A stretch of 61,254 nt of DNA from contig JAGCDZ010000026.1 of assembly GCA_017650905.1 (NCBI GenBank), positions 1-61,254 on the forward strand. The letters are read 5' to 3'. Below are positions 1,177 through 53,235 of this stretch, piece by piece. The notes beneath the pieces are model-generated. The model searched no databases. It saw only the letters and a program-made list of their open reading frames with translations, and was not told where the DNA came from. Position 1 is the stretch's first letter; every line of letters starts with the position of its first letter. The position numbers and the translations under genes are program-made. Source of the stretch: Prevotella sp. Its GTDB lineage: Bacteria > Bacteroidota > Bacteroidia > Bacteroidales > Bacteroidaceae.

Positions 1177-3630
1177 TCAGAATCTGATGACGTCAGACTG
1201 AAGGGTGGGTGATTTAGCAGTGATGGAGCCCTTGCCTGATACCACCACCATGCACTTGCCGAAGAAAGCTTTGCGCTGGGGAGCCGTGAAACGTTCCATC
1301 GAAGTCTGGCAACCATTGTCTGTGCCTAAGATTCTGCTATCGCCCTCTCCTACAAAGTAGATCTGGTCCTCAGCCCAAGGACAGAGGTTGCCGTCCTTAT
1401 CGACCACCTCGGCGGTGATGAAGGTCGTAGTCTTGCCCTGATAGTCTTTCGTGAGGCGGATCTTAGCTGGAGGGCCAGCAGTCTTGATGGTCTGTTCGCC
1501 AGTGACCTTGCCATCCTTGCGTGCCACCACCTTCACCTCACCGGGATCGAAGACAACGCGCCAACCTACGTGGTATTCTGTATTCAGGCTTGTCTTCGTG
1601 TTGTGACGATCGTAGCGATGTTCAGGATTCTCTGCTGTCTTACGACGCACACCCTGGCTCTTGCCGTTGATGAAGAGCTCCACCTCATCGGCATTGTTAT
1701 AGTAGCACCACATATCAATCTCGTCGCCAGGCACCCAGTTCCAATGGGGGAAGAGGTGCAGCACGGGGGTAGCAGTCCACTCGCTCTGGTACATGTAATA
1801 ACTGTCCTTGGGGAAGCCTGCCAGATCGATGATGCCGAAGTAGCTGGAGCGAGCAGGGAAGCCATAGGGCGTAGGTTCGCCGATATAGTCCCAACCTGTC
1901 CAGATATACTGCCCACCTACGAAATCGTTGTGCTTCACCACATCCCAGGTCTCTTCGTGCGTTGAACTCCATGAGGCGTGGAAGTTATCGTAAGAGGAAC
2001 ACATATACGAGGGGTCGGTATAGGGCAGATACCACTCCTGCGGGGCCCAGGTAATCTCGTCGGAAGGCATCTTGTAATAGCCACGCGTCTGCAAAGCCGA
2101 CACACTCTCAGAGAAGATGAAGGGCTTACCAGGGAAGTTCTTCGGCACATCCTTCACCCACTGATGGTGATAGTTGAAGCCGATGATGTCGATGGCACCG
2201 CTCTTGAAGAGGTGGTTGTTGGGCGAGGGCTCATTACAGCCTGCGAGAATGGGGCGCCCTTCGCCGTCGTTACGCTTGATAATGTCAGCCAGATGGATGG
2301 TCAACAGCGAGTTGGGACTCAATTCGCCATCTTTCGCCAGTGTCGAAGCATCGCGAGTAGCATTCAGCAAGAGGTTGGCCTGCTCGAGTGTCAGCTGGTC
2401 ATTGCCACTACCTGCCCACTGCTCGAGCACCTCGTTGCCGATAGACCACATAAGGATGCAGGGATGGTTGCGGTCGCGCACAACGAGGTCGGTCAGGTCG
2501 CGCTCGTGCCACTCGTCGAAGAAACGGGCATAGTCGTTCTGTGTCTTTTTGCGTCGCCACATGTCGAAACTCTCGTCCATGACAATGAGACCCATGGTAT
2601 CGCACATGTTCAGCAGTTCAGGTGCAGGGGGATTGTGCGAACTGCGGATGGAGTTGACTCCCATCGCCTTGAGCTTTGAGAGCTTGCGGTGAAGGGCATC
2701 CTCGTTGAGGGCTGCACCCAGGCAACCGAAGTCGTGATGCTCGCAGACACCGTTGAGTTTGAAGTTCTTGCCGTTGAGCCAGAAGCCCGTAGCGGCATCG
2801 AAACGGAAGGAGCGGAAGCCTGTGGTGGTCTCGTAAGTATCGACCACCTTGCCACCCACTTTCACTTGCGTGCGTACCTTATATATATAAGGGGTCTCAC
2901 ACGACCAGAGCATCGGTTTGGCAACGGTGATGACAGACTTCAGGCCCTTCGACTTGCCGACGACCTTTCCTTTGGGGTCGATGAGGGTGTTTTCAACCGT
3001 GCCCTGACCTTTCAACGTCACCTCGATATTGAGCCGGCCTTTACCTTTGACAACGCTACTGCTGGCATTGACACCCCAATGGGCGACATGAACAGGAGCG
3101 GTGGTAGTGAGCCACACATGACGATAGATGCCACAACCGCTGTACCAGCGCGAATTAGGCTGATCGGAGTTGTTGACGCGGACTGCCACCACATTGTCGC
3201 CCTCATGCACATAGGGTGTGATGTCGTACTCGAAGCTCGAATAGCCGTAAGGACGATGACCTACTTCCTTGCCATTGACATAGACGGTGGAATTCATATA
3301 GACACCATCGAACTCTATAAAGTATTGAAGACTTGAAGGATTGGAAGATTGTTGTTCATCAATCTTAAAATGCTTGCGATACCAGCCGATGCCGCCAGGA
3401 AGGGCTCCCCCACCCGCACCGCTGGGATTGCTGACATAGAAGTCGCCCTCGATGGCCCAGTCGTGGGGCACATCAAGTTTTCTCCATCGGCTATCGTCAA
3501 AATCTGCCTTAGCCATGATGATGGAGTCACCCAGATTAAAGCGCCAGTTCTTATCGAAACACTGGCGGTCGCGGGCCTGAACGGTTGTCAGTCCACAAAG
3601 GACGCACACAAATAATAATATTCTCTTCAT
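1177..3630 (-). CDS. Glycoside hydrolase family 2 beta-galactosidase-like enzyme
   Basis: This 817-residue protein begins with a signal peptide (MKRILLFVCVLCGLTTVQA) and acts in the periplasm or at the outer membrane. It has the GH2 order: sugar-binding jelly roll (about 25-180), Ig-like domain (to about 285), a TIM barrel opening at GFWLNGKNFKLNGVCEHHD, then C-terminal Ig-like domains typical of the DUF4982-containing bacterial beta-galactosidases. The acid/base Glu is E400 in MWSIGNE and the nucleophile is E508 in PFIFSES. It is the last gene of a four-gene operon, 3 nt after the GH31 gene and before a terminator. Beside an alpha-xylosidase-like enzyme, a likely job is removing galactose from xyloglucan oligosaccharides. 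The substrate is inferred; other beta-glycosides are possible. Confidence 0.85.
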   Translation of the reverse strand: MKRILLFVCVLCGLTTVQARDRQCFDKNWRFNLGDSIIMAKADFDDSRWRKLDVPHDWAIEGDFYVSNPSGAGGGALPGGIGWYRKHFKIDEQQSSNPSSLQYFIEFDGVYMNSTVYVNGKEVGHRPYGYSSFEYDITPYVHEGDNVVAVRVNNSDQPNSRWYSGCGIYRHVWLTTTAPVHVAHWGVNASSSVVKGKGRLNIEVTLKGQGTVENTLIDPKGKVVGKSKGLKSVITVAKPMLWSCETPYIYKVRTQVKVGGKVVDTYETTTGFRSFRFDAATGFWLNGKNFKLNGVCEHHDFGCLGAALNEDALHRKLSKLKAMGVNSIRSSHNPPAPELLNMCDTMGLIVMDESFDMWRRKKTQNDYARFFDEWHERDLTDLVVRDRNHPCILMWSIGNEVLEQWAGSGNDQLTLEQANLLLNATRDASTLAKDGELSPNSLLTIHLADIIKRNDGEGRPILAGCNEPSPNNHLFKSGAIDIIGFNYHHQWVKDVPKNFPGKPFIFSESVSALQTRGYYKMPSDEITWAPQEWYLPYTDPSYMCSSYDNFHASWSSTHEETWDVVKHNDFVGGQYIWTGWDYIGEPTPYGFPARSSYFGIIDLAGFPKDSYYMYQSEWTATPVLHLFPHWNWVPGDEIDMWCYYNNADEVELFINGKSQGVRRKTAENPEHRYDRHNTKTSLNTEYHVGWRVVFDPGEVKVVARKDGKVTGEQTIKTAGPPAKIRLTKDYQGKTTTFITAEVVDKDGNLCPWAEDQIYFVGEGDSRILGTDNGCQTSMERFTAPQRKAFFGKCMVVVSGKGSITAKSPTLQSDVIRF

Positions 3631-3633
3631 ACG

Positions 3634-6600
3634 TTACAATTGCATAGTTATTGCCTTACCATTATAATTCACGAGCTTGCCAGCGGGATTGTCGAGGTTG
3701 AGGGGCTGGGGAGCATCCTTCGAAATCAGGACCACATTGAACTGACGGTTCTTCAGCATACCAGCGAACTGACCCTTGCGGGCAGAAAAGCTAACCGTCT
3801 TGGCAGCATCGTTGTAAGTGATATCGATGGTGGCATACTTACCCTTCTCGTAGTTATAATTGGTGCCCTCGTCCTCGTAGAGCTGGAAGGAGCCGTTCTG
3901 ACCTGCGTAGACATAGAGATTGATGAATTCTGCGGGTTTTTCATCGCTCCACTCCATCTCTGGACCGAAGGGGATGATGGCACCCTCGCGTACGAAGACG
4001 GGAATCTGCTCGTAAGGGGCATCGACCACGAGTATCTGACCTCCCTCGATATATTCATTGGTGTAGAGGTTGTACCAACCACACTGCTTGGGGAAGTAGA
4101 CACTGCGGTTGCGGGCCTTGTAGTAGCCCACAGGACAAGCCATCAGCGCAGGGCCGAACATCCACTGGTTGCCGATATTCTCCACATCCTTATCACCGTT
4201 GAAGTCCATCACCAAAGCACGCATCAGGGTGTAGTCCTTGAAATGTGCCCATCCGGCCATCGAATAGAGATAAGGCATCAGGCGATAACGCAGTTTGTCG
4301 TAATAGACGAACGACTTGTAGGCGGGGTGATCATCTGGTGCGATGTTCCAGATCTCACGCAACGGCCACTGGCCATGAGAGCGGAACAGGGGGATGAAGG
4401 TGCCGAACTGGTTCCAGCGGGTCTGCAGCTCGCGCCACTCTTTCAGATCCTCGTTCTCCACCTTCGTGCGGTCGTAGGCCTGCTGAGCAGCCACATAACG
4501 GTTCTCCACACAGAAGCCGCCCTGATCCATACCCCAGAAGGGGATGCCGGAGATGGAATAGTTCAAACCGGCCGTCATCTGGGCACGCATATCCTCCCAG
4601 CGGGTGCCGATATCGCCGCTCCACGTAGCCGTAGAGAAGCGCTGTTCGCCAGCAAAACCGCTACGTGTGAGCAGGAATACTCTTGGCTCGTTGGCCTTGC
4701 CCTTATAGACACTACGCTGACCATTATAGATAGCGTCAGCATTCACCGTTGAGTAAGCATTGAAATACTCTGTGGAGGTGCCGAGGGCTGTGGGGCCACT
4801 AAGAGCCTTGCGATACCACATCGGCGTGCAATCGCGCACGTTTGGCTCAGAAGCATCCATCCACCAAGCGTCGACCTTTGACGTTGATTTGCCAGAGAGA
4901 CCGGTATAGAGCTTTTCGTCCATCTGGCGCCAGAACATCTTGCGGGCACCTGTATCATAAGCATCGTAGAAACCATTCGTGTAGCCTGGTCCTACCCAGT
5001 CGTGAATATCATCCGTCGGACTCTGGATATACATCCAGCCCTTAGCATCGAGCTCTTTGTAGTTATCCGTATTGCAATAGAACTTAGGCCATACGGAAAT
5101 CATGAAACGGCCATGCATCTGATGGACATTATCGAGCATCTGCTGCGGATTCGGATAGCGCGAGGCTTCGAACTCATGACTACCCCACTGATCCTCGGGC
5201 CAGTAGTTCCAGTCCTGTACAATATTGTCGATGGGGATATGACGCTTGCGGAACTCAGCCAGCGTGCTCTCGACTTCCTCAGAGGTCTTGTAACGCTCAC
5301 GACTCTGCCAGAAGCCCAGCACCCATTTGGGATAGAGCGAGGCCTTACCCGTGAGGGTGCGATAGCCGGAAATCACCTGATCGAGATTCTCGCCAGCGAT
5401 GAAATAATAGTCCATATCCTTAGCCATCTCGCTCCAGACGGAGAGTTTTCCACGCTCCTCATCACTGCGAGGCTCGGCAACGCGCAAACCGCAGTAGGAC
5501 TCGCCACCATCGGGTTGCCACTCGATACGCAACTGGACCCTCTTTTTCTTCTCCAGTTCGACGGCAAACTTATAGGCATTAGGATTCCAGGCTGTGCGCC
5601 AACGCTCAGGCACCACCTCCTTGCCATCGATATACACCTTGATATAGCCGGCATAATAGAGGATGAACTGGAAGAGCTCCTTCTGACCTTTGCACTCGCA
5701 TTTACCTTTACAGTCGCATTTGCCACCATCACAGCACTTGGGCTCGATGAAACCCTCGTAAATGACATTGGCACCAGCCAACTGGAAGCCCTTCGGCAGA
5801 TTCTTGATGCCGCCATTATCGGTCTTCAGGGCAATCTCCGACTTTGCAGGCGTACCGTATTCATAATAGATGCTGTCCTCATCGCGCACGAGCTTTTTGC
5901 CCATACGGTCTATGTATGTACCAGTAAGATGACCTTTCTTGCCCTGTTTATCGTAGAGACGGAAGGCTTGATTCAGCTGGAGATAGTCGTTGGGATTACC
6001 AAAACGGCAGAACGAATACGAATCCCAGAGGATACCGTAGTTTTTGTTCGAGAGCACAAAAGGAATCGAGACCTTCGTATTATACTGGAAGAGGTCTTCA
6101 TTCTTGCCCTTCATGTTGAACTCCTCACTCTGATGCTGACCTAAGCCATAGAAAGCCTCATCGTCAGGGCTATCGAACTTCATCTGCCAAGTGAGGCCAT
6201 GCTTCTGTTCCTCGGGCACCGTATAGCCCGTCTTGATGCCCAGCTCACGCTCAGGCACCGTGAAGTCCCAGAACTGCTTACCATCCTTGGCTTCTTTCAG
6301 AAGCTGATTACCATCGGCATCGAAAAAAGTGATTTCGCCATTTTCCGTATCGACCACCGCCTTCACATTCTTGGCCTTCACCGTCACTTTGTCGTCGTCC
6401 TCATCGATGTCGACATCTTTCGGGGGTGCTGCCTGGGGCACGATCATCAGACTGGCGGGTTTATCGGGCAATGCCTCCTTCGACGTTGTTCGCACGCGAA
6501 TGATGTTGTCGTTAATCACCTCTAAACGGATCACCTTTGCCTGACCGCCATCAGGACGGATTGTCACATGGTTTCCACTCATCTGCACATCATCTGCCAT

Positions 6601-6651
6601 CAACATTGTTGTTGCCAGCAGGGCAGACATCATACATAATAATCTCTTCAT
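3634..6651 (-). CDS. GH31 alpha-xylosidase-like enzyme with PA14 insert
   Basis: This 1005-residue exported enzyme has a signal peptide at about 1-19. It has an N-terminal beta-sandwich, a PA14 domain inserted at about 295-395 (LFQFILYYAGYIKVYIDGK, WNPNAY, EWQPDGGESY), and a GH31 barrel from about 440 (PKWVLGFWQSRERYKT). The nucleophile is D599 in WWMDASEPN and the acid/base is D680 in ATWSGDIG. The PA14 insert and the WQSRERYKT start recall alpha-xylosidases of xyloglucan loci, which release xylose from isoprimeverose and larger oligosaccharides; alpha-glucosidase is the alternative. The PA14 domain carries an odd stretch with six Cys in 15 residues (306-320, CCDGGKCDCKGKCEC). The gene lies 15 nt after the receptor gene and 3 nt before the GH2 gene. 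Confidence 0.85.
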   Translation of the reverse strand: MKRLLCMMSALLATTMLMADDVQMSGNHVTIRPDGGQAKVIRLEVINDNIIRVRTTSKEALPDKPASLMIVPQAAPPKDVDIDEDDDKVTVKAKNVKAVVDTENGEITFFDADGNQLLKEAKDGKQFWDFTVPERELGIKTGYTVPEEQKHGLTWQMKFDSPDDEAFYGLGQHQSEEFNMKGKNEDLFQYNTKVSIPFVLSNKNYGILWDSYSFCRFGNPNDYLQLNQAFRLYDKQGKKGHLTGTYIDRMGKKLVRDEDSIYYEYGTPAKSEIALKTDNGGIKNLPKGFQLAGANVIYEGFIEPKCCDGGKCDCKGKCECKGQKELFQFILYYAGYIKVYIDGKEVVPERWRTAWNPNAYKFAVELEKKKRVQLRIEWQPDGGESYCGLRVAEPRSDEERGKLSVWSEMAKDMDYYFIAGENLDQVISGYRTLTGKASLYPKWVLGFWQSRERYKTSEEVESTLAEFRKRHIPIDNIVQDWNYWPEDQWGSHEFEASRYPNPQQMLDNVHQMHGRFMISVWPKFYCNTDNYKELDAKGWMYIQSPTDDIHDWVGPGYTNGFYDAYDTGARKMFWRQMDEKLYTGLSGKSTSKVDAWWMDASEPNVRDCTPMWYRKALSGPTALGTSTEYFNAYSTVNADAIYNGQRSVYKGKANEPRVFLLTRSGFAGEQRFSTATWSGDIGTRWEDMRAQMTAGLNYSISGIPFWGMDQGGFCVENRYVAAQQAYDRTKVENEDLKEWRELQTRWNQFGTFIPLFRSHGQWPLREIWNIAPDDHPAYKSFVYYDKLRYRLMPYLYSMAGWAHFKDYTLMRALVMDFNGDKDVENIGNQWMFGPALMACPVGYYKARNRSVYFPKQCGWYNLYTNEYIEGGQILVVDAPYEQIPVFVREGAIIPFGPEMEWSDEKPAEFINLYVYAGQNGSFQLYEDEGTNYNYEKGKYATIDITYNDAAKTVSFSARKGQFAGMLKNRQFNVVLISKDAPQPLNLDNPAGKLVNYNGKAITMQL

Positions 6652-6666
6652 TTTTGTATTTCGTTT

Positions 6667-9600
6667 TTAGGATTCGTCTTCAATAATCGTCGCCTCTTCG
6701 ATCTCTGGGTCCTCCACAGGCAGCGTGATGGTAAACACCGTACCGCCTCCAGGATTATCATCGGCCTTGATGGTGCCATGATGGGCATCGACAATCTGTT
6801 TCACCACATCGAGTCCGATGCCTTCATCCTCACTGTCACCACCGATATAGGGTTCAAACATGTGAGGCTTTGACTCCTCGGGGATACCAATACCATTATC
6901 GGCTATCAATAGAGCCACCTTGTCGTCAGAAGGCTTCAAGGCCGTCACCTGTACCCTGCAATATGACGACGTGAACTTCACTGAGTTCGACAACAGGATA
7001 TCTAATGCCTTGCGGATCTGTTCTTCATCGAATGACATAGGAATAGATTCGAGCGGAGAACCGAAGGTAATGTTCATTTTCTTGTCCTCAGATGCCTTGA
7101 AATTCTCACAGAGATTCTTCAGGAAGGCCACTATGTCACCCTCCGAGCGATGGAGCTCTATTTTCGGAAGTTCCGGAGTTGCCGGGATTTCCGGATCAAT
7201 GGCATCCGACTCATGGATGACCTCTACAGGTTCTTCTGTGGGACTCTTCTGGAAACGCATGCCTTCTTTCTGCATCTGAGCACGCATCTCACTCATCCAC
7301 TGGCGCTTCTCCACGTCGCGCTGTAACTGCTCCAGTTGGGCCCTTTCCGTCAGTTTCTTCTGATACCACTTTATAAACAGCCATGCGCCGGCGGCAATGA
7401 GAATCATGTAGAGCAAAATCATCCAGCGCGTGCGATACAGCGGCGGGCGGATGGTGATGTCGAGCTGACTCTCCTCTGCACCTAATGAACCGTCATCGTT
7501 GAGAATACGCACACAAAGGGTATAGGAGCCTGCACGCAATGAGTTGTAAGTGATATTCGGGTTCAGCTCCGAGGTCTTCACCCAGTTTTCGTTGAAGCCT
7601 TCCAACTTATAGGCAAAGCGTTTGTGGTTGTTGATACGAGCCTCGTTGGTGGCCAATTGAATAGTAAACTGGTCGTTATACTTCAAAGTCAACTCCCTGC
7701 ACACATCGAGTGCTTCATCGAGAATCACGCGGCCATTGAACTTCTTGCCGACTTCCACATCCTGATCGAAGATCTGCAAGCCACTGAATACAGGACGCTC
7801 CTTGCTCTGGTTATCTTCCAACAAGGCCGGATTGATGATGTCGAGACCGGCTTGTCCACCAATAAGTATCTTACCATCGCGTGTGAGCCAGGTGGAACGC
7901 TGATTGTAGGTAGCCTTCTGCAGACCATCGCGGCTACTGAAACTTCGAATATTGAACAGCCAGGTGCCGTCGTCTTGCTTCTGGGGGATAATCTTCGAGA
8001 CACCGTGATCGGTGATTACCCAGACTGCGTGCTGCCGGTCTTCAACAATGGAGTTAACACCTGAACTGGATAGTCCGTCCGTCATATCAATGAGTTTCTG
8101 GAACTTGGTCTGTGGATCGTAGGCAATCACACCTACGTTAGAACCATGCCAAATCAATCCGCGACTATCCTCAATAACATAATTCGTATTACCTACGCTG
8201 ACATTTACATTGGGATTCTCAGGAATCTCCTGATTCACCAGTTTGTGGCTCACGGGATTCACCAAGGAATAGAAGTGGTTCGAACCAACCATCAACCAAC
8301 CCTTCTTGTTCCATTCGACGGATGTCAGGTAGTCGTAAGGCACATTGGTGTTATGGGTGTCCCATGTGGTGTACTTCTTTGTCTTCGGATCCCACATCTG
8401 CAGACCACCACCCAAAGTACTGAACCAGAGACGGCCCCACTTGTCCTCGGTAAGCGCCCAGACACTGTTGTTGGCCAATCCGCCTGGCGAAGCCTGCACG
8501 TTGATGATATGTGCCTGTGTGGGATCAGAAGCCGAAGGGATAGCATGGGTCAGACCACCGTTGTAGGAACCAAACCAAAGGGTGCCGTCGCTCGCAGCCC
8601 AGGAGCCCACAACGATATTACTCACTAGTCCGCTATTATCCTTCGTGAAATGGTTTACCACCTCGCCCGTCTTAGGATTATACACCAGGATACCCTGGTC
8701 GTTGGTGCCCAACCAATAGTTGCCAGCCTTATCCTCGCAGGCGGTTGTGACATCACCCAGATCGACGCTCTTCAAACTGGCGAGGCCTCGGATATACTGG
8801 TTGACGCCGTTCTTAAAGGAACCAATCCAAATACTACCGTCGTCGGCCTGATAGATGTTACGAAGGGTGTTATCGCTAATGGAAGTCTCGTCGTACTTAT
8901 TGTTCATGAACTGCTTCCATTGTTTGTTCTTCATATCGATGACCACCACAGCATCATGATCGCACACCAGCCAGAGCCAGTCGTTCTCGTCGACAAGGAG
9001 GCACCAAACCTGAAGTGAAGTAGGAACGCTTTCAACACCTTTGGTGGCCAGATAGTCTAGCATCGTATACCATTTCTTGGTCTTATACTCATGGACATAC
9101 ACAAAAGACAACACGTTACACCATATATTCATGTCTTTGTCGACATAGAGTCTGTACTCCTGACTATCGATGCCACTCGCTTCATACATCCAACGGTCTA
9201 TCCACTCTACCTCGCCTTTGTCACCATTCAGGCAGACCAGTTCACCATTGTTGGTGACGACCAGCAATCTGTCGCCGTATTCCGCTACTGTAGAGATGCC
9301 GAAATTGGGCGAGAACTCGTTTATGCCGAAGCCCATCTTGATGGTGGTAATCTTGTTTTTCTTGGCATGAGGATGATAGCAATAGATGGCTTTCTCAAAA
9401 TCCTTCACCCAGATATTCTTCTTCGAGTCGATATGCAGCCACTCCACATTACAGTTCAAGCCCAGTTTGGCTAGCGCCCTGGAGGCCTTGCGCTCGAAGG
9501 TCTCTTTCACGGGATCATACACACAATAGTTCATGCCCTGCCGCATCCAAAGTTGGCCTTCTGAATCTTCAAACACACGATCCGTGTAATTGTCGCGCAT

Positions 9601-9849
9601 CGTAGTGGTATCACGAAGATTAGAATAGTAGGTCTTCACCCTATAGCCGTCATAGCGGTTCAGACCGTAGGGGGTACCAATCCATACATATCCTTTAGAA
9701 TCCTTGAAGATACAGTTTATCTGAGAACTCGACAAACCCTGCGGGGTGTCAAGTCGCCGGAACTTCATATCAGGAATGAAAGACGTCTGAGCCTCGGCCA
9801 CCAAACCGAGAGCCATCAAACAAAGAATAATCAGTTTCTTCATAATCAT
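6667..9849 (-). CDS. Reg_prop/Y_Y_Y receptor with HATPase domain but no DHp, receiver or HTH
   Basis: The 1060-residue protein has a signal peptide, then Reg_prop beta-propeller repeats (for example DSKGYVWIGTPYGLNRYDG, EDKWGRLWFSTLGGG), a Y_Y_Y domain (about 725-800, FAYKLEGFNENWVKT) and one membrane helix (about 808-828). This is the sensory half of a hybrid two-component system. Inside the cell a short helical stretch and a Pro/Glu-rich linker (about 868-900) lead to a HATPase domain with N box (LLSNSVKF, N955), G1 (ADNGIGIP) and G2 (GIGLDVVK). I see no phospho-acceptor helix with an HE-x-RTP H-box, and no receiver or AraC HTH. It ends EIEEATIIEDES, like its upstream paralogue (11 nt away). 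An ATP-binding receptor with non-standard output is inferred. The Met at 9843 is an alternative start. Confidence 0.85.
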   Translation of the reverse strand: MIMKKLIILCLMALGLVAEAQTSFIPDMKFRRLDTPQGLSSSQINCIFKDSKGYVWIGTPYGLNRYDGYRVKTYYSNLRDTTTMRDNYTDRVFEDSEGQLWMRQGMNYCVYDPVKETFERKASRALAKLGLNCNVEWLHIDSKKNIWVKDFEKAIYCYHPHAKKNKITTIKMGFGINEFSPNFGISTVAEYGDRLLVVTNNGELVCLNGDKGEVEWIDRWMYEASGIDSQEYRLYVDKDMNIWCNVLSFVYVHEYKTKKWYTMLDYLATKGVESVPTSLQVWCLLVDENDWLWLVCDHDAVVVIDMKNKQWKQFMNNKYDETSISDNTLRNIYQADDGSIWIGSFKNGVNQYIRGLASLKSVDLGDVTTACEDKAGNYWLGTNDQGILVYNPKTGEVVNHFTKDNSGLVSNIVVGSWAASDGTLWFGSYNGGLTHAIPSASDPTQAHIINVQASPGGLANNSVWALTEDKWGRLWFSTLGGGLQMWDPKTKKYTTWDTHNTNVPYDYLTSVEWNKKGWLMVGSNHFYSLVNPVSHKLVNQEIPENPNVNVSVGNTNYVIEDSRGLIWHGSNVGVIAYDPQTKFQKLIDMTDGLSSSGVNSIVEDRQHAVWVITDHGVSKIIPQKQDDGTWLFNIRSFSSRDGLQKATYNQRSTWLTRDGKILIGGQAGLDIINPALLEDNQSKERPVFSGLQIFDQDVEVGKKFNGRVILDEALDVCRELTLKYNDQFTIQLATNEARINNHKRFAYKLEGFNENWVKTSELNPNITYNSLRAGSYTLCVRILNDDGSLGAEESQLDITIRPPLYRTRWMILLYMILIAAGAWLFIKWYQKKLTERAQLEQLQRDVEKRQWMSEMRAQMQKEGMRFQKSPTEEPVEVIHESDAIDPEIPATPELPKIELHRSEGDIVAFLKNLCENFKASEDKKMNITFGSPLESIPMSFDEEQIRKALDILLSNSVKFTSSYCRVQVTALKPSDDKVALLIADNGIGIPEESKPHMFEPYIGGDSEDEGIGLDVVKQIVDAHHGTIKADDNPGGGTVFTITLPVEDPEIEEATIIEDES

Positions 9850-9860
9850 CTAACCATTAT

Positions 9861-12467
9861 TTATTCATCCATTAGGATTGCCTCTTCTATTTCTTCCTCT
9901 TTCTCTTGGTCGGAAGCAGCAGTCGGCTCGTCATCAGATTTCTCCTGACGCCATTGTTTCCGTTTACCGAACTCTTTCACCGCATGGACAATCTTTCCCT
10001 GACCAAATATCAGGATACCGATCAGCAGCGCATACAGAATCCAAGCCCACCACGAACGATACCAGGGAGAAAGAATTACAATATCGAGTTCGCTGACCTC
10101 ATCATCCATTGTTCCGTCGTCATGAAGGATACGCACACAAAGGGTATAATCGCCCGGGGGCAATCCCATATAAGTAATGTCGGCCTGACCACTCGAGGTC
10201 TTGATCCACATATCATTGAAGCCTTTCAGTCTATAGGCGAAACGCGTCTTGTTGTTCACACCACCATTGTCGGAAGCCATCAGAATCGTAAACTGGTTCT
10301 CTTTGTACTTCAACTTGATGTGCCGTTGCTGATCAAGTGCCTCGTCCAAGATGATACGACCATTGACTTCTGCGCCCACCTCTACCAATTGGCCGAACAG
10401 TTCAAGGCCGCTGAACACCGGCTGCTCCTTACCATTATTATCATTCAGGCGAAGCGTGCTGATAATGTCCAGTCCTTCCTGTCCTCCAACAAGCAGATAG
10501 CCGTCACGCGAACAATAGATAGCACGCTGGTTAAACGGCCCAGGCTGCAATCCGTCACGGTCATTATAGCTGCGCACAATAAAAGTCCAAGTACCATCTT
10601 CCTCTTGCTGGGGAATGATATTCGATACACCATGATCAGTTGCTACCCACATGGTGTGACGCGTATCCTCTGTGACAGATACAGCATTCGAGCCATGAAG
10701 GCCCGACTTCATATCCAACAGAGTGGTCTGGTTATTCTTCCTGTCAAAGACGGCGACACCTGCCGGCGAACAAAGCCAAATCAGACGTCGGCTATCCATC
10801 ACGGCATGGGAGGTGGCACTTGATATCGTGATGGACTTATTACCTTTCGTTTCTGCCAGCCAGCCATTCACAACTCTGAAATTACCCGGATGGATCAGTG
10901 CAAAATATTCCGAATTACCCAAAAGTATCCAACCATTGGAGGCGGTGGAGATACTATTGGTCCACACGGTTTTCAAGACGGAATTGTCCGCAATGAAATT
11001 GCGTTGTTCGCCTGTACGCTTATCGATGCGCACCGCACCGCCACCAAGCACACCAACCCAGATATTGCCCCATCGGTCTTCCGTAATGCCCCAGATGTTA
11101 TTCGTCACAAAGGCACTGCCCGGGTCTGTCGTACGGTAGTTTTTCCAATTGCCATCCTTGTATTTCAAGAGACCACCTTCATACGTACCGAACCACAAGC
11201 TCCCATCTTTGGCTGCATAACTGCCGACAATAATGTCGCTGGGCACGCCAAGCCTTTGTTTCGAGAAAGTATCTACCGGCTCCAAAGTCTTAGGATCCAT
11301 CTTGATGATACCGCCATCGTTACGACCAATCCAATAATAGCCTTGCTGGTCCTCACAGATAGTATTGATATCACCGATATTGAGACTGACGAAATTGGAC
11401 ATGGATTCTGAACACATGGCCACACCATTCTTGTAAGTGGCTACCCACATCCTGCCCAGTTGATCGAGATAGAGATGCTTACAGGTAATATCGGGTAAGG
11501 AGGAGTCGTCGCCTTTTACATTCGTGAACTGGCGCCATTCCTTGCTTTTGAAATCGAGCACCAGTACACCGAGGTGGTCGGTAGCCACCCACAAGAAGCC
11601 TTTATTGTCATAACAGATCTCCCATACCAGGATATCGTCAGGCACATTCTCAAAACCTTTCGCCCGCATGAACTCCGTCAGCGTGGTGTACCAGCGTTTC
11701 TCATTCTTACTAAAAATATAAGTACCTGTTGAGTGTGTGATGACCCAGATATTTTCCTCTTTATCCACAGTCACCCAGTAGTCGTTATAGGCATCAAGGG
11801 CCCGTTTCACATAGTCTTCCTTCCAAAGCACCTTTCCGCGAGGGCCGTCTATACACATCAGTTCGCCGAAAGTAGACACGAGAATCATGCCTTCCTTGCT
11901 TTCCGCATAGGCCGAAACACCAAATTCCTTGGAGAACTCATAGGGGCCATAGCCAAAGTTAATGTGCTTCAGAAGTTTCTTGGTGGGGTCGAAATAGTAG
12001 AAACCGTCTTCATAAGTCTTTACCCAATAGCTCTTGTTCTTATCCAGATGAATACTTTCAATGCTTCCGGTAATGCCCTGCGAATTAAGCCAACGGGCAG
12101 GTGTGCGGTCCACACTCTCCGTTTGGGGATCATAGAGAGAGTAGTTCATGCCCTGCTTCAGCCAGAGCCGACCCCCATGACCTTCCTGTATCTCGTCAAT
12201 ACGGTTATTGCGGAGGGTGGTAGTATCCTGATCATAGGAGAAGAAGGTTCGAACACGATAGCCATCATATCGGTTCAGACCATAGCCTGTTCCAAGCCAG
12301 ACATATCCTCGGGAATCACGGACTATACTGTTCACAGTAGAATTCGACAGTCCTTCTCGGGTGTCCAAGCGTTTGAACTTCATATCAGGTATCACACCTG
12401 CACTTACATCTGCTATCAAACACAATATTGTCATCAGGAAAGATAGCCGTTTCATCGTGATAGTCAT
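9861..12467 (-). CDS. Kinase-less Reg_prop/Y_Y_Y receptor
   Basis: The 868-residue protein is a paralogue of the downstream receptor, with the same opening (VIPDMKFKRLDTREGLS), Reg_prop propeller repeats and Y_Y_Y domain (FAYRLKGFNDMWIKT). One membrane helix follows at about 806-824. Only about 44 cytoplasmic residues remain, Lys/Arg-rich at first and then acidic, ending EEEIEEAILMDE. No DHp, HATPase, receiver or HTH is present, so it cannot signal by the usual hybrid route. It is the first gene of the operon, directly after a good promoter. It could pair with the downstream receptor through the propeller and Y_Y_Y domains, or act as a ligand-binding competitor. Translation may start at the second Met (12455), which gives a cleaner signal peptide. 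Confidence 0.85.
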   Translation of the reverse strand: MTITMKRLSFLMTILCLIADVSAGVIPDMKFKRLDTREGLSNSTVNSIVRDSRGYVWLGTGYGLNRYDGYRVRTFFSYDQDTTTLRNNRIDEIQEGHGGRLWLKQGMNYSLYDPQTESVDRTPARWLNSQGITGSIESIHLDKNKSYWVKTYEDGFYYFDPTKKLLKHINFGYGPYEFSKEFGVSAYAESKEGMILVSTFGELMCIDGPRGKVLWKEDYVKRALDAYNDYWVTVDKEENIWVITHSTGTYIFSKNEKRWYTTLTEFMRAKGFENVPDDILVWEICYDNKGFLWVATDHLGVLVLDFKSKEWRQFTNVKGDDSSLPDITCKHLYLDQLGRMWVATYKNGVAMCSESMSNFVSLNIGDINTICEDQQGYYWIGRNDGGIIKMDPKTLEPVDTFSKQRLGVPSDIIVGSYAAKDGSLWFGTYEGGLLKYKDGNWKNYRTTDPGSAFVTNNIWGITEDRWGNIWVGVLGGGAVRIDKRTGEQRNFIADNSVLKTVWTNSISTASNGWILLGNSEYFALIHPGNFRVVNGWLAETKGNKSITISSATSHAVMDSRRLIWLCSPAGVAVFDRKNNQTTLLDMKSGLHGSNAVSVTEDTRHTMWVATDHGVSNIIPQQEEDGTWTFIVRSYNDRDGLQPGPFNQRAIYCSRDGYLLVGGQEGLDIISTLRLNDNNGKEQPVFSGLELFGQLVEVGAEVNGRIILDEALDQQRHIKLKYKENQFTILMASDNGGVNNKTRFAYRLKGFNDMWIKTSSGQADITYMGLPPGDYTLCVRILHDDGTMDDEVSELDIVILSPWYRSWWAWILYALLIGILIFGQGKIVHAVKEFGKRKQWRQEKSDDEPTAASDQEKEEEIEEAILMDE

Positions 12468-12661: not shown

Positions 12662-14134
12662 ATGAATCAACAAACAGCACAAGGTAGTAAGTCCTACCTC
12701 ATCAGTATTGTGATGGTGGCCGTGTTAGGCGGTCTGCTATTCGGTTATGACACCGCAGTGATTTCTGGAGCCGAAAAAGGTCTCCAGGCGTTTTTCATGG
12801 AAGCCAAAGACTTCGCCTATACCGATGGCTGGCACGGCTTCACTTCGGCCTCTGCCCTCATCGGCTGTATCATCGGTTCGGCCCTCTCTGGTTTCCTGGC
12901 TACGAACCTCGGTCGTAAAAAGTCGCTCATCATCGCAGGTATCCTCTTCTTCATCTCGGCACTGGGCTCGATGGATCCTGAGTTTATGTTCTTCGAGTAC
13001 GGTCAGCCCACTTATTCGCTGCTTATCATGTTCAACATCTACCGTGTCATCGGTGGTATTGGTGTAGGTCTGGCTTCGGCTATCTGCCCGATGTATATCG
13101 GTGAGGTGGCACCTTCTAATATCAGAGGTATGCTCGTGTCATGGAACCAGTTCGCCATCATCTTCGGTCAGTTGGTAGTTTACTTCGTGAATTTCTTCAT
13201 CCTGGGCGACCACATCCAGCCTTTGGTAGAAGAGATGGGTAAGGGCATTGCCGCCATCAATCCCGCTGCACAGTGGACTGTCACTACAGGTTGGCGTTAT
13301 ATGTTCGGTTCAGAGGCTGTACCCGCAGGACTTTTCGCCCTATTGATCTGCTTCGTACCTGAGACGCCACGTTACCTTGTATCGATTGGTCAGGATCAGA
13401 AGGCCCTCGGCATCCTGTCGAAGATTAACGGTTCGAGCAAAGCAGCCCAGATTCTGCAGGATATCAAGGATACAATGGTAGTGAAGACCGAGAAGCTGTT
13501 AACCTATGGTGCCATGTGTATCTTCATCGGTATCATGCTCAGCGTATTCCAGCAGGCTGTGGGTATCAACGCCGTGCTCTACTACGCACCGCGTATCTTT
13601 GGCGACATGGGTATGGACAACCCGATGATGATTACGGTCTTCATGGGTGTCATCAATATTCTCTTTACCCTCGTGGCTATCTTTACTGTTGAGAAGTGGG
13701 GCCGCAAACCTCTGCTCATCTACGGTTCGCTGGGTATGGCACTTGGTGCCTTCGGTGTAGCCATCACCTTCGGTCATGCCGGTATGGAGTTTGTCACCGC
13801 AGCCTCTCTGCTCATCTACTCGGCTTCGTTCATGTTCTCATGGGGTCCCATCTGCTGGGTGCTCATCGCCGAGATCTTCCCCAATACCATCCGTGGTGGT
13901 GCAGTGGCTATCGCTGTGGCTTTCCAGTGGATTTCAAACTTCATCGTTTCGTCGACTTTCGTCCCGATGTTCAACATGCACCTCACTGAGGGTGACGACT
14001 TCGGTCACTGGTTCACCTACGGCCTCTATGGCATCCTCTGTGTCGTCGCTGCCATCTTCGTCTGGAAGCTCGTTCCTGAGACCAAGGGCAAGACGCTTGA
14101 GGATATGACCAAACTCTGGCGCAACAGGAAATAA
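12662..14134 (+). CDS. xylE: D-xylose:H+ symporter, XylE-like (MFS sugar porter)
   Basis: The 490-residue, 12-helix protein follows E. coli XylE closely along its length: LGGLLFGYDTAVISG in helix 1, SALIGCIIGSALSG, GGIGVGLASAICPMYI, GRKKS and GRKPL loops, and PETKGKTLEDM at the end. Xylose-contacting positions known from XylE are kept: NQFAIIFGQ, FQQAVGIN, WGPICWVL and AFQWISN. It imports xylose (possibly glucose) across the inner membrane. It is divergent from the operon with an alpha-xylosidase-like enzyme, which fits import of the released xylose. No xylose isomerase or xylulokinase lies in the window. The substrate is a strong family inference, not proven. Confidence 0.88.
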   Translation: MNQQTAQGSKSYLISIVMVAVLGGLLFGYDTAVISGAEKGLQAFFMEAKDFAYTDGWHGFTSASALIGCIIGSALSGFLATNLGRKKSLIIAGILFFISALGSMDPEFMFFEYGQPTYSLLIMFNIYRVIGGIGVGLASAICPMYIGEVAPSNIRGMLVSWNQFAIIFGQLVVYFVNFFILGDHIQPLVEEMGKGIAAINPAAQWTVTTGWRYMFGSEAVPAGLFALLICFVPETPRYLVSIGQDQKALGILSKINGSSKAAQILQDIKDTMVVKTEKLLTYGAMCIFIGIMLSVFQQAVGINAVLYYAPRIFGDMGMDNPMMITVFMGVINILFTLVAIFTVEKWGRKPLLIYGSLGMALGAFGVAITFGHAGMEFVTAASLLIYSASFMFSWGPICWVLIAEIFPNTIRGGAVAIAVAFQWISNFIVSSTFVPMFNMHLTEGDDFGHWFTYGLYGILCVVAAIFVWKLVPETKGKTLEDMTKLWRNRK

Positions 14135-14216: not shown

Positions 14217-15242
14217 TTACTTTCTGGCTGATGTATCACGAATCACCAGCTTCTGTGGAACAATTTTGCGGTAGATCTTAGAATCGCCACCAATATTCTT
14301 CAAAAGCAGCTGACAAGCGGTCTGGCCCATCAGGTGCGACTGATCTTCAATGGCCGACATACGTGGGGTGACGTATTGGGCATGCACATCATCGGTAAAG
14401 CCAATCAGTGCCACGTCTTCAGGAATACGCAGTCCATGTTGTTTGATAGCCGTAAAAGCCGCAAAAGTAATAATGTCATTGAAGGCCAGAATCGCATCAG
14501 GCCGATTCTCTTGCTGCAGAAGCCTAGTGGTGGCATCCATAGCCCACTGATAATCTATCTTCTCACAGGCCACCAAATCACGGTCGATAGGAATCCTATT
14601 CTCACGCAAGGCTTCCAGATAACCGTGCTTCCGACGCTTCACCATATCAAGATGGTTAGGACCGCCAATAAAAGCAATGCGACGGCTACCGGTATCTATC
14701 AGATGTTGGGTAGCCTGAAAGGCGGCCTCATCACCATTAGCTGTCACGCTCGAGAAACGGTCGGTCAGACAGGTACGTCCGAAAAACACAAGAGGAATAC
14801 CCATATTAGCAATTTCCTCAAAATGGCTATAGTCTGTGGTATTCTGCGACAGACAGGCAATGATACCCTCTACATGCAGACTGATGAAATTGTCGATAGC
14901 CCGTATCTCTGTTTCGGTATCTTCATGCGTATTGGCACTGATGACCGAATAGCCCTCCTTGCGCGCCTCATCTTCGATGCCGTCTAAGACAGCGGCATAA
15001 TAATGGGTCACAAGATTGGGTACCACCACGCCTATCACCCGAGGAGCTTCCTTCCGGAGACTCTGTGCAAAGGGATTCGGACGATAGTTCAATCGCTTAG
15101 CCAGCTCCTTGACCTTCATCTGCATGTCTTGTCCTATTTCCGGACTACTGCGAAGGGCACGGCTGACAGTAGCGATGCTGACACCCAGTTCCTGGGCCAA
15201 GTCTTTCAATGACGTTCGACGTTTATTTGCTGCCATTTTCAC
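14217..15242 (-). CDS. LacI-family transcriptional regulator
   Basis: The 341-residue protein has an N-terminal LacI HTH and hinge (TSLKDLAQELGVSIATVSRAL, then KRLNYRPNPFAQSLR) and a periplasmic-binding-protein-like effector domain from about residue 65 (VIGVVVPNLVTHYYAAVLDG to LLLKNIGG). It should bind a palindromic operator as a dimer and respond to a sugar. It faces xylE across a shared terminator, and its own promoter contains a LacI-type palindrome, so autoregulation is likely. I did not find the same palindrome in the xylE/operon control region, so control of those genes is unproven. Start: the ATG at 15242 gives MKMAANKRRTSLKDL, with a possible internal start at the second Met. Confidence 0.88.
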   Translation of the reverse strand: MKMAANKRRTSLKDLAQELGVSIATVSRALRSSPEIGQDMQMKVKELAKRLNYRPNPFAQSLRKEAPRVIGVVVPNLVTHYYAAVLDGIEDEARKEGYSVISANTHEDTETEIRAIDNFISLHVEGIIACLSQNTTDYSHFEEIANMGIPLVFFGRTCLTDRFSSVTANGDEAAFQATQHLIDTGSRRIAFIGGPNHLDMVKRRKHGYLEALRENRIPIDRDLVACEKIDYQWAMDATTRLLQQENRPDAILAFNDIITFAAFTAIKQHGLRIPEDVALIGFTDDVHAQYVTPRMSAIEDQSHLMGQTACQLLLKNIGGDSKIYRKIVPQKLVIRDTSARK

Positions 15243-15262: not shown

Positions 15263-15294
15263 CAAAATTACAAAAAATCCCCGAACCTCGCAAA
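15263..15294 (-). promoter_or_regulatory. Promoter of the lacI-type gene
   Basis: On the minus strand TTTG (15291-15294) and TAATTTTG (15263-15270) are 20 nt apart. The upstream element lies inside the palindrome at 15289-15302. Confidence 0.75.
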
Positions 15295-15302
15295 CGTTTA
15301 CG
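15289..15302. promoter_or_regulatory. Candidate LacI-family operator
   Basis: CGCAAACGTTTACG is a near-perfect palindrome around AAACGTTT with a central CG, the hallmark of LacI/PurR-type operators. It covers the -33 element of the regulator's own promoter, so bound repressor would block it. It also lies about 45 bp upstream of the rightward TACCTTTG box. Assignment to this regulator is inference. Confidence 0.6.
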
Positions 15303-15346
15303 TTGTTTTTTCACTCTAAATCGCTTAAAAACAGGGAAAAAGTCCT

Positions 15347-15443: not shown

Positions 15444-15450
15444 TTATTTT
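15409..15450 (+). terminator. Rho-independent terminator of the candidate small RNA
   Basis: AGCCAAGA (15409-15416) pairs with TCTTGGCT (15432-15439). Inside it, after one mismatch, TGTC pairs with GACA around a 5-nt loop. TTTTTTTATTTT follows on the plus strand. The minus-strand side is much poorer in U. Confidence 0.8.
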
Positions 15451-16229
15451 ATTCTCAGATTACCGACATGAATATCCCCCGATCCATTCTTCTTGTAATC
15501 ATAATGTGTCAGGGTTCCACTAAGTTCAATGTCGCCAGAGCCTGATAACTGGCATTGTGCAGACTTACATCCTTCTTCAAAACTGACGGAAATATCCCCG
15601 GAGCCCCTCAAGGACAAATCCGTTTCCTCAACATTGGCCTCAATGATCCTGATGTCGCCAGAGCCAACCAATACTGCCGTTGACTTCTTTGCATCGAGAT
15701 GATTGATACTGATGTCGCCAGAACCGACCAACTCCGTAGTACACGCATCACAGATGATATCCTCAAATCTGACGTCACCGGATCCGCGCAGAACGATATT
15801 CATCACATCTGTATCGAGCAGCTTACTGCTGACAAAGTCACCTGAGCCATTCACACGCACTCCAATCAGATCCGGAGAGGATACATAGACGGTAACATCA
15901 TCCTTATCACCCCAATTCAGGTTGATGGCACCTACTTTCAAATCCACCCTCCCCTTGTTATACACAAAGAGCGTACGGTCTTTCACTTCGGTCACCATAT
16001 TATCGACCATTTTCTCCAGGCCTTCCAATCTCACGCCAAACGTATCAGCCTGGGAATATACGACATTGGGAGAGCCGCTGATCTCGATGCGCTCAAACCC
16101 GCGATGCTTTCTCACATCCACAATCTGATCACCTGGAAGGGGCCTGTCACACGTCACAACACACGAAGTCATTCCCAATGCGACCATCATCAATAGGACG
16201 TTATACATCAGATACTGTCTTGCTTTCAT
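15444..16229 (-). CDS. Head-GIN domain (DUF2807) lipoprotein
   Basis: The 261-residue protein has a lipoprotein signal (LGMTSC, lipidated Cys at about 23). The mature part is a DUF2807 'head GIN' right-handed beta structure, with GSGD-type turns at each repeat (VNGSGDF, LRGSGDV, LVGSGDI twice, LRGSGDI, LSGSGDI, NGSGDI). Proteins of this family sit on the cell envelope of Bacteroidetes; their role is unknown and an adhesin-like function has been suggested. It is the last gene after the sensor kinase and M15 peptidase, 68 nt from the latter, so co-transcription is likely but not certain. Confidence 0.85.
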   Translation of the reverse strand: MKARQYLMYNVLLMMVALGMTSCVVTCDRPLPGDQIVDVRKHRGFERIEISGSPNVVYSQADTFGVRLEGLEKMVDNMVTEVKDRTLFVYNKGRVDLKVGAINLNWGDKDDVTVYVSSPDLIGVRVNGSGDFVSSKLLDTDVMNIVLRGSGDVRFEDIICDACTTELVGSGDISINHLDAKKSTAVLVGSGDIRIIEANVEETDLSLRGSGDISVSFEEGCKSAQCQLSGSGDIELSGTLTHYDYKKNGSGDIHVGNLRIK

Positions 16230-16937: not shown

Positions 16938-18176
16938 TTACGCTAAGGGAAGTATGAACCAGAAGTCGGAACCAGCACCCAGTGATGACTCGACGCCAAC
17001 CGTACCACCAAGATTCTTCACGTGCGACGCAACGACGGAGAGACCCAGTCCGGTACCGGGGATGAACTCATCGACCTTGACGAAACGCTCAAAGATACGT
17101 TTCTGATCCGCCTTGTCGACACCTTTACCCGTATCTTTCACACTGACGCGCACCTGATTACCCTGTACCTCATAATGCAATGTAATCTCGCCCTCGGTGG
17201 TGAACTTGACGGCATTCTGTACAAGATGGTCTAGGATCTCAACGAGTCTCTCGCGGTCGGTCTGGATCATTAACCGCGGCAAGGGGCACTCAACATTGAT
17301 CGGCAGATTAGCAGTTGGCTGATATTTATCGGCCACATCCTGCAGCAGTTGGTTGAGATCGACCTTACCCATGAGCAAGCTCTTGGCCCCAGCTTCAATC
17401 TGCGACATGCTGACGAGTCCATCGATGACACGAAGCAATTTCCGGTTGTTTTCCTGGATCTCGACTATCAGCTGGTTGCGGTCTTCATCGCTCTGCACCA
17501 TCGGGAGTAGGTCCGCAAATCCGACAATAGCGTTGAGGGGCGTACGGATCTCATGTCCCATGTTGGCCAAAAAGGCTGTTTTCAGGCGGTCGCTCTCTTC
17601 AGCCTTGTTTCGGGCTGCGACCAACGATGCCTCCATCGTCTTACGCTCATCGATGCGCTGGGTAGTTCCTACGATCTTGGTCGGAATACCGTCCATGTCG
17701 CGCTCCACAATAGTGGCATAGCTCTCTTCCCAGAAAGAATTGCCGGAAATCGGATTTGTTATCTGATACTCCTGATGATAGAAATCAGAACGACCCTCGC
17801 AGATATCGTTGAAGCTCTTACTCACCCGGTCGACGTGGGCAGGGGAAATGTCGGAAAAAAAATTGTTGAGCATGTCATCGCCGCCCGGGACATAATTGTC
17901 GCTCCCGTCGCGGTAATCGCTCTCGATGACAAATGTCTTTGTCCGCGGCTCGTAGCGCCAAACGGCAATCTTCATGGCTTTGAGAATAAATTCAAATTCG
18001 ATGTTGTTCTGTCGCACCTTTTCGAGTTCGATAAGCTCATGCTTGAGCTTTCGCCCCGACCTTAACTGATAATAGATGCCGAAGCAGAGAAGCAGAAACA
18101 AGATAAATCCGCCGACCCAGATCAACATGACGGTCAGGGAGCTGAAACGTGAGGTATATAGCAGAATCGATTCCAT
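16938..18176 (-). CDS. Membrane sensor histidine kinase with PAS domain
   Basis: The 412-residue protein has one membrane helix (about 14-36), a PAS-like domain (about 65-175, VWRYEPRTK to TTQRIDERK), a HisKA domain with phospho-acceptor H208 in ANMGHEIRTPLNA, and a HATPase domain with N box (LVQNAVKF), G1 (DTGKGV) and G2 (GTGLGLSV). No response regulator is adjacent, so the partner is elsewhere. The absence of a sizeable extracellular domain suggests sensing by PAS or the membrane. It is the first gene of the operon with the M15 peptidase and the head-GIN lipoprotein. Confidence 0.88.
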   Translation of the reverse strand: MESILLYTSRFSSLTVMLIWVGGFILFLLLCFGIYYQLRSGRKLKHELIELEKVRQNNIEFEFILKAMKIAVWRYEPRTKTFVIESDYRDGSDNYVPGGDDMLNNFFSDISPAHVDRVSKSFNDICEGRSDFYHQEYQITNPISGNSFWEESYATIVERDMDGIPTKIVGTTQRIDERKTMEASLVAARNKAEESDRLKTAFLANMGHEIRTPLNAIVGFADLLPMVQSDEDRNQLIVEIQENNRKLLRVIDGLVSMSQIEAGAKSLLMGKVDLNQLLQDVADKYQPTANLPINVECPLPRLMIQTDRERLVEILDHLVQNAVKFTTEGEITLHYEVQGNQVRVSVKDTGKGVDKADQKRIFERFVKVDEFIPGTGLGLSVVASHVKNLGGTVGVESSLGAGSDFWFILPLA

Positions 18177-53203: not shown

Positions 53204-53227
53204 ACGGTTTCGTTTAAAAACTACATG

Positions 53228-53235
53228 CAAAGATA
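53228..53235 (-). promoter_or_regulatory. -7 box of the alpha-2-macroglobulin operon
   Basis: On the minus strand TATCTTTG lies 24 nt before the ATG at 53203. No clear -33 element. Confidence 0.65.

Follow-up and report, generated by a model that had tools for sequence, protein, structure and literature searches.

A conserved pseudokinase receptor of Prevotella descended from hybrid two-component systems, and a LacI-type regulator as its candidate output

Bacteroidetes of the gut rely on hybrid two-component systems (HTCSs) as their standard sensors of fibre. How can such a sensor report its ligand once the domains that pass on phosphate and bind DNA have gone? The question is raised by two adjacent genes of a Prevotella sp. 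genome (assembly GCA_017650905.1, contig JAGCDZ010000026.1; the 61,254 nucleotides analysed are called the window), whose products, here receptors A and B, were described in an initial annotation as hybrid-type receptors that have lost the standard two-component output. Is B still a kinase, or a gene in decay? If neither, through which protein does it act? What is A for? The explanation we favour, tentatively and at somewhat less than an even chance, is that B is a phosphate-free sensor of xyloglucan oligosaccharides that would act by contact, in most genomes on the LacI-type repressor of its own locus.

Both open frames are present as annotated, and the sensory half that they have in common, with Reg_prop propellers, a Y_Y_Y domain and one membrane helix, was confirmed. 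In B, Pfam recognises Reg_prop, Y_Y_Y and HATPase_c (80.9 bits, residues 941-1046); HisKA-type, Response_reg and HTH_18 domains have no match in A or B at E <= 0.1, so the loss of the standard output holds. The same is found in relatives: HATPase_c is recognised in each of the 27 B-type proteins of one alignment (A1; the window's B is one of them), and the 13 Pfam families that match them at E <= 0.01 do not include HisKA, by which a DHp phospho-acceptor domain hidden from the annotator's eye is rejected. B also has sequence matches among solved kinase domains. The cytoplasmic halves tell what became of the kinase. When 88 distinct B-type parts were aligned with 12 hybrid kinases (nine relatives and three paralogues from the same genome as the window), the H-box pattern was found in all 12 kinases and in none of the 88, with the DHp helices likewise missing, and the distance from the end of the membrane helix to a conserved D(I/L)V was 53-101 residues in B (median 65) against 84-117 in the kinases. 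The initial annotation had described the ATP-binding domain as having intact N, G1 and G2 motifs. This stands for the pocket asparagine (N955 in the window) and the G1 aspartate, each kept in 87 of 88, and for the G2 motif of the window itself, both glycines of which are found in 34 of the 88 relatives. It fails at the -4 position of the N-box, which we take to be catalytic (the boxes bear their customary names): asparagine in 12 of 12 hybrid kinases, it is never so in B, where isoleucine (77), threonine (8), methionine (2) or leucine (1) is found. The F-box arginine is kept in one of 88, and the ATP lid has 11-16 residues against 20-29. A Pro/Glu-rich linker had also been said to replace DHp; DHp is indeed gone, but such a linker is confined to the close relatives of the window and varies in sequence and length across the family. 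By its sequence, then, B is a pseudokinase whose phospho-acceptor domain has been deleted and whose catalytic residues have been lost, with the pocket asparagine and aspartate retained.

Is this an accident of one genome? Of 150 genomes from this genus, 74 contain a frame that B as a query matches at E <= 1e-60, and for 29 of these, the window's own among them, the top-scoring frame is B-type (one is truncated where its contig stops). The window's own assembly has 110 contigs and a completeness of 71.55%. In a scan of named genomes the best 80 of 426 loci were taken, some of them with little upstream sequence, and every one has a B-type frame, five being cut by a contig end. These records are labelled Prevotella, Prevotellaceae, Bacteroidales or uncultured bacterium, and four carry strain names (HUN156, Tc2-24, tf2-5, khp7) in place of metagenome-assembled genome (MAG) labels; with the 29 genomes they exclude an assembly error. 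Across 251 family-level genomes (E <= 1e-140, with three candidates scored in each) the short form was confined to this genus; the six genomes from outside it that match at this threshold have frames of 1369-1416 residues. One MAG has two B loci and two PurD copies (L133 and L139, same MAG; L224, L239) and is probably a mixture of two strains.

Ratios of non-synonymous to synonymous substitution (dN/dS) were taken only from pairs with an overall proportion of synonymous differences (pS) of up to 0.65; of the 66 pairs among 12 B genes 33 qualified, and of the 231 among 22 A genes 70, with synonymous sites partly saturated. Among close relatives of B they are 0.08 for the sensor, 0.19 for coil and linker, 0.13 for the pseudo-HATPase and 0.10 for the C-terminal tail, in agreement with the annotator's view that simple decay is not the cause. 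Relatives that do have kinase and helix-turn-helix modules exist, and they are distant: full HTCSs of 1322-1409 residues, with H-box, HATPase, receiver and AraC domains (Pfam of L051), are about 32-35% identical. In a FastTree tree of 139 sensor halves they are outermost, followed by AraC-only receptors of 1011-1048 residues (Pfam of L061) and then by an A clade and a B clade. Since the complete relatives branch outside the whole A/B group, the truncation is old and not recent. One B-type protein (L079) sits at the base of the A clade and four AraC-only receptors are nested inside the B clade, a topology by which cytoplasmic parts have been lost or swapped on more than one occasion. The AraC-only receptors (L061, 6087-9140; L135, L138, L145, L042-L047, L080) have the same sensor, then a DHp-like hairpin without the histidine (ELRQPF in several), then AraC. 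B-type receptors are, in sum, an old, conserved, HTCS-derived family without phosphotransfer parts, maintained under purifying selection.

What, then, is left in the cytoplasm to carry a signal? In A, Pfam finds Reg_prop and Y_Y_Y only, and one membrane helix and a short tail follow. This tail is common to A and B, a feature that the initial annotation did not describe, and opens with (I/V)E(E/D)A, after which come residues of hydrophobic and acidic character. It is found at 81 of 88 B-type C-termini by a strict pattern, and at all 88 by a loose three-residue pattern which chance could also satisfy; among 27 A proteins, 23 have the strict motif, one a variant, and three stop shortly past the helix without it. 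In A, dN/dS is 0.11 in the sensor, 0.37 in the helix, 0.35 in the linker and 0.13 in the tail, so that the tail is held while its surroundings drift. Is it a general Prevotella motif? A degenerate nucleotide pattern, narrowly drawn, for EEAV(L/I/M)M(D/E), which misses many tails, that of the window included (G000: none), has 17 exact matches in 150 genomes, 14 of them in these receptors (13 assigned by coordinates) and three in unrelated frames, which does not support the idea. By eye it is plausible that this very short stretch is a relic of the first strand of the receiver. In one locus (L161, 5376-11105) A and B are joined in a single frame of 1909 residues, with the tail of A absent at the junction. 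Apart from this fusion, A lies directly before B in only 24 of the 80 named loci, and the receptor pair proposed as the functional unit is weakened to that extent.

The genes downstream point to the ligand. A and B lie head to tail on the minus strand, 11 bp apart; a GH31 gene follows after 15 bp and a GH2 gene 3 bp after that, in line with the two glycosidases placed there by the initial annotation. The best solved-structure match of the GH31 is the α-xylosidase BoGH31A (1242 bits over residues 34-1004 of 1005), and together with a β-galactosidase-type GH2 it directs attention to the side chains of xyloglucan. In 70 of the 80 named loci the distance to a downstream GH31 is at most 300 bp, with five more too short to tell, and GH31 is a steadier neighbour than LacI; the full HTCS is directly before GH31 in eight of nine relatives and after LacI in four of nine.

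A receptor without a DNA-binding domain needs another protein for its output, as one of the annotator's suggestions implies. Which one? The best candidate is a LacI-family regulator, and gene order offers the first hint: among the 80 named loci, a LacI gene on the receptor's strand precedes the first receptor at up to 150 bp in 21, at 151-2500 bp in 11 and further off in one, and the two genes overlap by 4 bp in five pairs. Strain tf2-5 (L176) is one that has lacI beside B. In six further loci LacI is fused in frame to the receptor, which with L064 makes seven genomes. The fusions have 1373-1394 residues in the order LacI, helix, propeller, helix, pseudo-HATPase, tail, and their junction is free of stops, the C-terminus of LacI running into the former signal peptide. 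In the two that were scanned (L137, L146), Pfam finds LacI, Peripla_BP_3, Reg_prop, Y_Y_Y and HATPase_c in one frame, the helix being assigned by sequence. A palindrome with the core AAACGTTT is found in 45 of 55 lacI upstream regions, and in two loci (L199, L202) LacI, GH31 and GH2 stand in a row without any receptor, the first of them with the palindrome before lacI; this makes LacI look like the locus's own DNA-binding regulator.

Have LacI and B evolved together? A mirror-tree comparison of LacI, B and GH31 drew on 27 of 34 non-redundant loci, with PurD as the organismal control (four loci were left out, as were two genomes without a PurD match and the mixed MAG with two copies). The partial rank correlation beyond PurD is 0.56 between LacI and the pseudo-HATPase (reached by none of 1000 label permutations), 0.25 between LacI and the sensor (3 of 1000) and 0.15 between LacI and GH31. 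LacI thus has a history in common with the cytoplasmic half of B beyond that of the organisms. Locus L079, whose sensor sits at the base of the A clade, is plainly a natural sensor swap: compared with L063, identity is 92.6% in LacI, 78.6% in the cytoplasmic part and 49% in the sensor, LacI and pseudokinase having stayed together.

Several observations weigh against LacI as the client. At least 2.5 kb of upstream sequence holds no same-strand LacI in 31 of the 80 named loci (one, L174, has a LacI on the other strand), and ten have too little sequence. A LacI match at E <= 1e-90 is missing in four of the 29 B genomes (25 have it) and present in 55 of the remaining 121, for which no B is listed, so that LacI can do without B. 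In G055 and G223, both 99% complete and with B, the orthologue is missing (the best match is 34-35% identical) and no exact copy of the palindrome occurs; such genomes would need a different partner. In the window XylE separates lacI from A and B, and the palindrome lies before lacI only, not before xylE or the A-B operon, which has no LacI operator; L202 has no operator match. The fusions form two sister groups with three unfused members among them and near-identical junctions, which means either one origin with later splitting or two origins, and possibly a single event. When the fusion clade, the window clade and L079 are dropped, the remaining 18 loci give 0.47 for LacI and pseudo-HATPase and 0.46 for LacI and sensor, so the preference for the cytoplasmic half hangs on the dropped loci; in eight loci with a non-adjacent LacI the correlation with GH31 (0.71) exceeds that with the pseudo-HATPase (0.60), here uncorrected for PurD. 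Aligned LacI proteins, with seven sequences for comparison, have no more than three columns that distinguish B loci. As for the palindrome, a search of 12 genomes with one mismatch allowed gave matches many of which are no commoner than with a reversed-pattern control, and exact copies occur elsewhere too (G000: in three places), so the motif is probably common to other LacI proteins. Two more exact copies in the window's own genome (C101; L203, 5436-5449 and 13166-13179) lie beside genes that read like outer-membrane sugar uptake genes.

With these points on both sides, we judge it most probable that the receptors signal through contact with another protein, LacI in the majority of cases. B would be an inner-membrane sensor, probably for xyloglucan-derived oligosaccharides, whose ancestor was a hybrid two-component kinase. 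Ligand would alter the dimer geometry of the periplasmic half, as is usual for this sensor family, and the short cytoplasmic coil would relay the change to the pseudo-HATPase, which without the histidine domain and the catalytic residue may be a nucleotide-holding or a purely structural docking module. The acidic tail common to A and B would be the docking peptide, and in the majority of genomes the locus's own LacI-type repressor would be the client, held or released by the ligand-bound receptor. The α-xylosidase/β-galactosidase operon would in this way answer both the oligosaccharide in the periplasm, through the receptor, and the sugar in the cytosol, through LacI. A is a second receptor cut down to sensor and tail, and probably a heteromer partner. 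The annotator's suggestion of control in trans is thereby narrowed: the client would sooner be the local LacI than a kinase. A more far-reaching version is possible, and we hold it with less confidence: that rumen-type Prevotella turned a phosphorelay sensor into a phosphate-free transmembrane LacI switch with a pseudo-HATPase docking module and an acidic peptide, and in one group into a single membrane-embedded LacI polypeptide that reads periplasmic oligosaccharide and cytosolic sugar.

Could the DNA-binding partner be a different protein altogether? It might be another HTCS-derived receptor, a tandem AraC-type one or a kinase-less receiver and AraC paralogue, with B contributing the pseudo-HATPase to a heteromer. 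B stands directly before an AraC-only receptor in L061, L135, L138 and L145, and a paralogue of 1251-1295 residues, recognised by length and similarity, occurs in 27 of 30 B genomes, among them G055 and G223. In one such paralogue (L092) Pfam recognises HTH_18 and Response_reg but not HATPase_c, and scores HisKA under the cut-off; this family (L092, 6650-10432; L093, 5819-9562) looks like a degenerate kinase with the H-box histidine replaced by aspartate (DDLRQP), without HATPase and with receiver and AraC kept. Against such a partner, the only AraC-only receptor among the matches listed for the 30 B genomes is G082's own, the paralogue is also present in many genomes without B, where common ancestry can explain the overlap, and no fusion of either protein with B was seen. 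We consider this partner unlikely.

Equally improbable in our estimate is that LacI is a plain local repressor which B does not control, with A and B serving as periplasmic ligand buffers or scaffolds and the cytoplasmic part having a non-regulatory task, as a stabiliser of the dimer or of the enzymes' site at the membrane. The steadiness of GH31 over LacI, the receptor-free rows and the three A proteins that end soon after the helix would all fit. What speaks for a cytoplasmic role is the purifying selection on pseudo-HATPase and tail, the near-invariant pocket residues and the LacI fusions.

Less probable again is that B steers a separate histidine kinase in trans, as DivL does CckA (a principle known from excerpts of PMC4211667). 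The window has a HisKA and HATPase_c kinase 4.5 kb upstream of A, and a relative of it, at least 40% identical, is encoded upstream on the same strand in 15 of 38 loci (the window and those named loci with more than 6 kb upstream); counting all loci, with duplicates and two distant opposite-strand matches, it is found in 24 of 56 B loci against none of eight HTCS and none of five AraC loci. Yet several genes separate this kinase from B, it is not there in 23 of the 38 loci, and the DHp bundle kept in DivL is lost in B.

We give still less weight to a B that binds and perhaps hydrolyses ATP, its nucleotide state driving clustering or its phosphate going to a DHp domain in trans. The retained pocket asparagine and G1 aspartate speak for it; the loss of the -4 asparagine and the F-box arginine, the shortened lid and the uneven G2 glycines speak against it, and the ATP-driven clustering once proposed for these receptors finds no support here. 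Finally, decay or misassembly of an ordinary hybrid two-component system, suggested by the full-length hybrid kinases at the corresponding place in relatives, is hardly credible given the many independent assemblies and strain records with the same architecture, the deep clade, the purifying selection and the conserved tail.

The features of the window are collected in Table 1.

Table 1. Coordinates of the receptors, their parts and the neighbouring genes in the window
Feature	Position	Strand	Description and basis
Receptor B	6667..9849	-	1060 residues; signal peptide (by eye), Reg_prop propellers, Y_Y_Y, one membrane helix, coil/linker, pseudo-HATPase, acidic tail; open frame, Pfam, relatives
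B sensor half, about residues 25-808	7426..9777	-	Pfam; PDB sequence matches 4a2l, 3v9f (two-component sensor chains)
B membrane helix, residues 810-828	7366..7422	-	hydrophobicity
B coil and linker, residues 829-934	7048..7365	-	conserved EKxxWM(S/N)EMR, DHp helices missing; relatives, alignment to 12 hybrid kinases
B pseudo-HATPase, Pfam match residues 941-1046	6712..7029	-	N955, D984 kept; N-box -4 is Ile951; F-box Arg replaced by Pro; lid short
B acidic C-terminal tail, residues 1047-1060	6670..6711	-	conserved in family; dN/dS 0.10
Receptor A	9861..12467	-	868 residues; signal peptide, Reg_prop, Y_Y_Y, one membrane helix, 41-residue cytoplasmic end; open frame, Pfam
A acidic C-terminal tail, residues 854-868	9864..9908	-	same motif as B; strict motif in 23/27 A proteins; dN/dS 0.13
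GH31	3634..6651	-	closest solved relative α-xylosidase BoGH31A; Pfam, PDB sequence match
GH2, β-galactosidase type	1177..3630	-	Pfam; best NCBIfam models GalB and GalA, both under their own cut-offs
XylE-type sugar porter	12662..14134	+	divergent from A-B operon; Pfam; NCBIfam PRK10077.1 over cut-off
LacI-family regulator, proposed client	14217..15242	-	Pfam, NCBIfam, neighbourhoods of relatives
Putative LacI operator, ACGTAAACGTTTGCG type	15286..15305	-	upstream of lacI; core 15289-15302; sole window site over scan threshold
HisKA and HATPase_c kinase	16938-18176		upstream of lacI; Pfam; 4.5 kb upstream of A

Between lacI and this kinase lies a protein with GSGD-type repeats (15444-16229) that recurs in the neighbourhoods of relatives, and among the neighbourhood matches listed no universal upstream neighbour of the receptor loci was found. 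A LuxR-type regulator occurs near lacI or the receptor in L191 (6000-6638), L167, L195 and L197, with a receiver match under the Pfam cut-off in the one scanned (L191). Far from the receptors, positions 47705-53230 encode an ordinary α-2-macroglobulin-type bacterial protein of 1841 residues (Pfam A2M, MG2, bMG10).

Why does this matter? A conserved lineage without phosphate chemistry that is still under selection suggests that a sensor of this type can work by contact alone, and with full kinase, AraC-only, pseudokinase, tail-only, LacI-fused and receptor-free LacI forms side by side the question becomes testable. Excerpts of PMC11107044 describe Xylanibacter ruminicola KHP1 and many other rumen Xylanibacter strains as growing on xyloglucan without a recognisable xyloglucan polysaccharide utilisation locus. 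An α-xylosidase operon whose regulator had gone unrecognised is a candidate for part of the explanation, KHP1 itself lying outside the genomes searched. No account of this receptor family was met in the literature on membrane LacI proteins, truncated or atypical HTCSs and pseudo-histidine kinases, a search from which subscription papers were mostly excluded.

How do these receptors compare with known systems? The closest counterpart by content is a xyloglucan-responsive cluster of Segatella copri (NQ544_01410-01420), which according to excerpts of PMC11784079 consists of a GH2, a GH31 and an HTCS gene; the sensor half (Reg_prop, Y_Y_Y, one helix) and the enzyme neighbours are common to both. 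Compared with HTCSs in general, B is without DHp, receiver and AraC domains and has lost its catalytic residues, A is also without the HATPase, and the acidic tail of both was not seen in HTCSs or AraC-only forms. Among pseudo-histidine kinases, DivL of Caulobacter, as excerpts of PMC4211667 present it, reads a response regulator and keeps its DHp domain with tyrosine in place of histidine; its structure (PDB 4q20) is among the sequence matches of B. The two are alike in using a histidine-kinase fold without kinase activity, predicted from sequence for B, for what in B would also be protein contacts, and they differ in that B, a receptor that senses in the periplasm, no longer has DHp. The LacI fusions and the AraC-only receptors, for their part, resemble the transmembrane transcription regulators covered in excerpts of PMC10269533, one-chain membrane-bound DNA-binding regulators with Y_Y_Y sensors. 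Pfam finds no DNA-binding domain in A or B of the window, which sets them apart from these regulators. The fused relatives of B, with a DNA-binding domain and a membrane helix in one polypeptide, differ from the regulators of that source, whose main text does not contain the term 'laci', in having LacI at the N-terminus and a pseudo-HATPase after the second helix.

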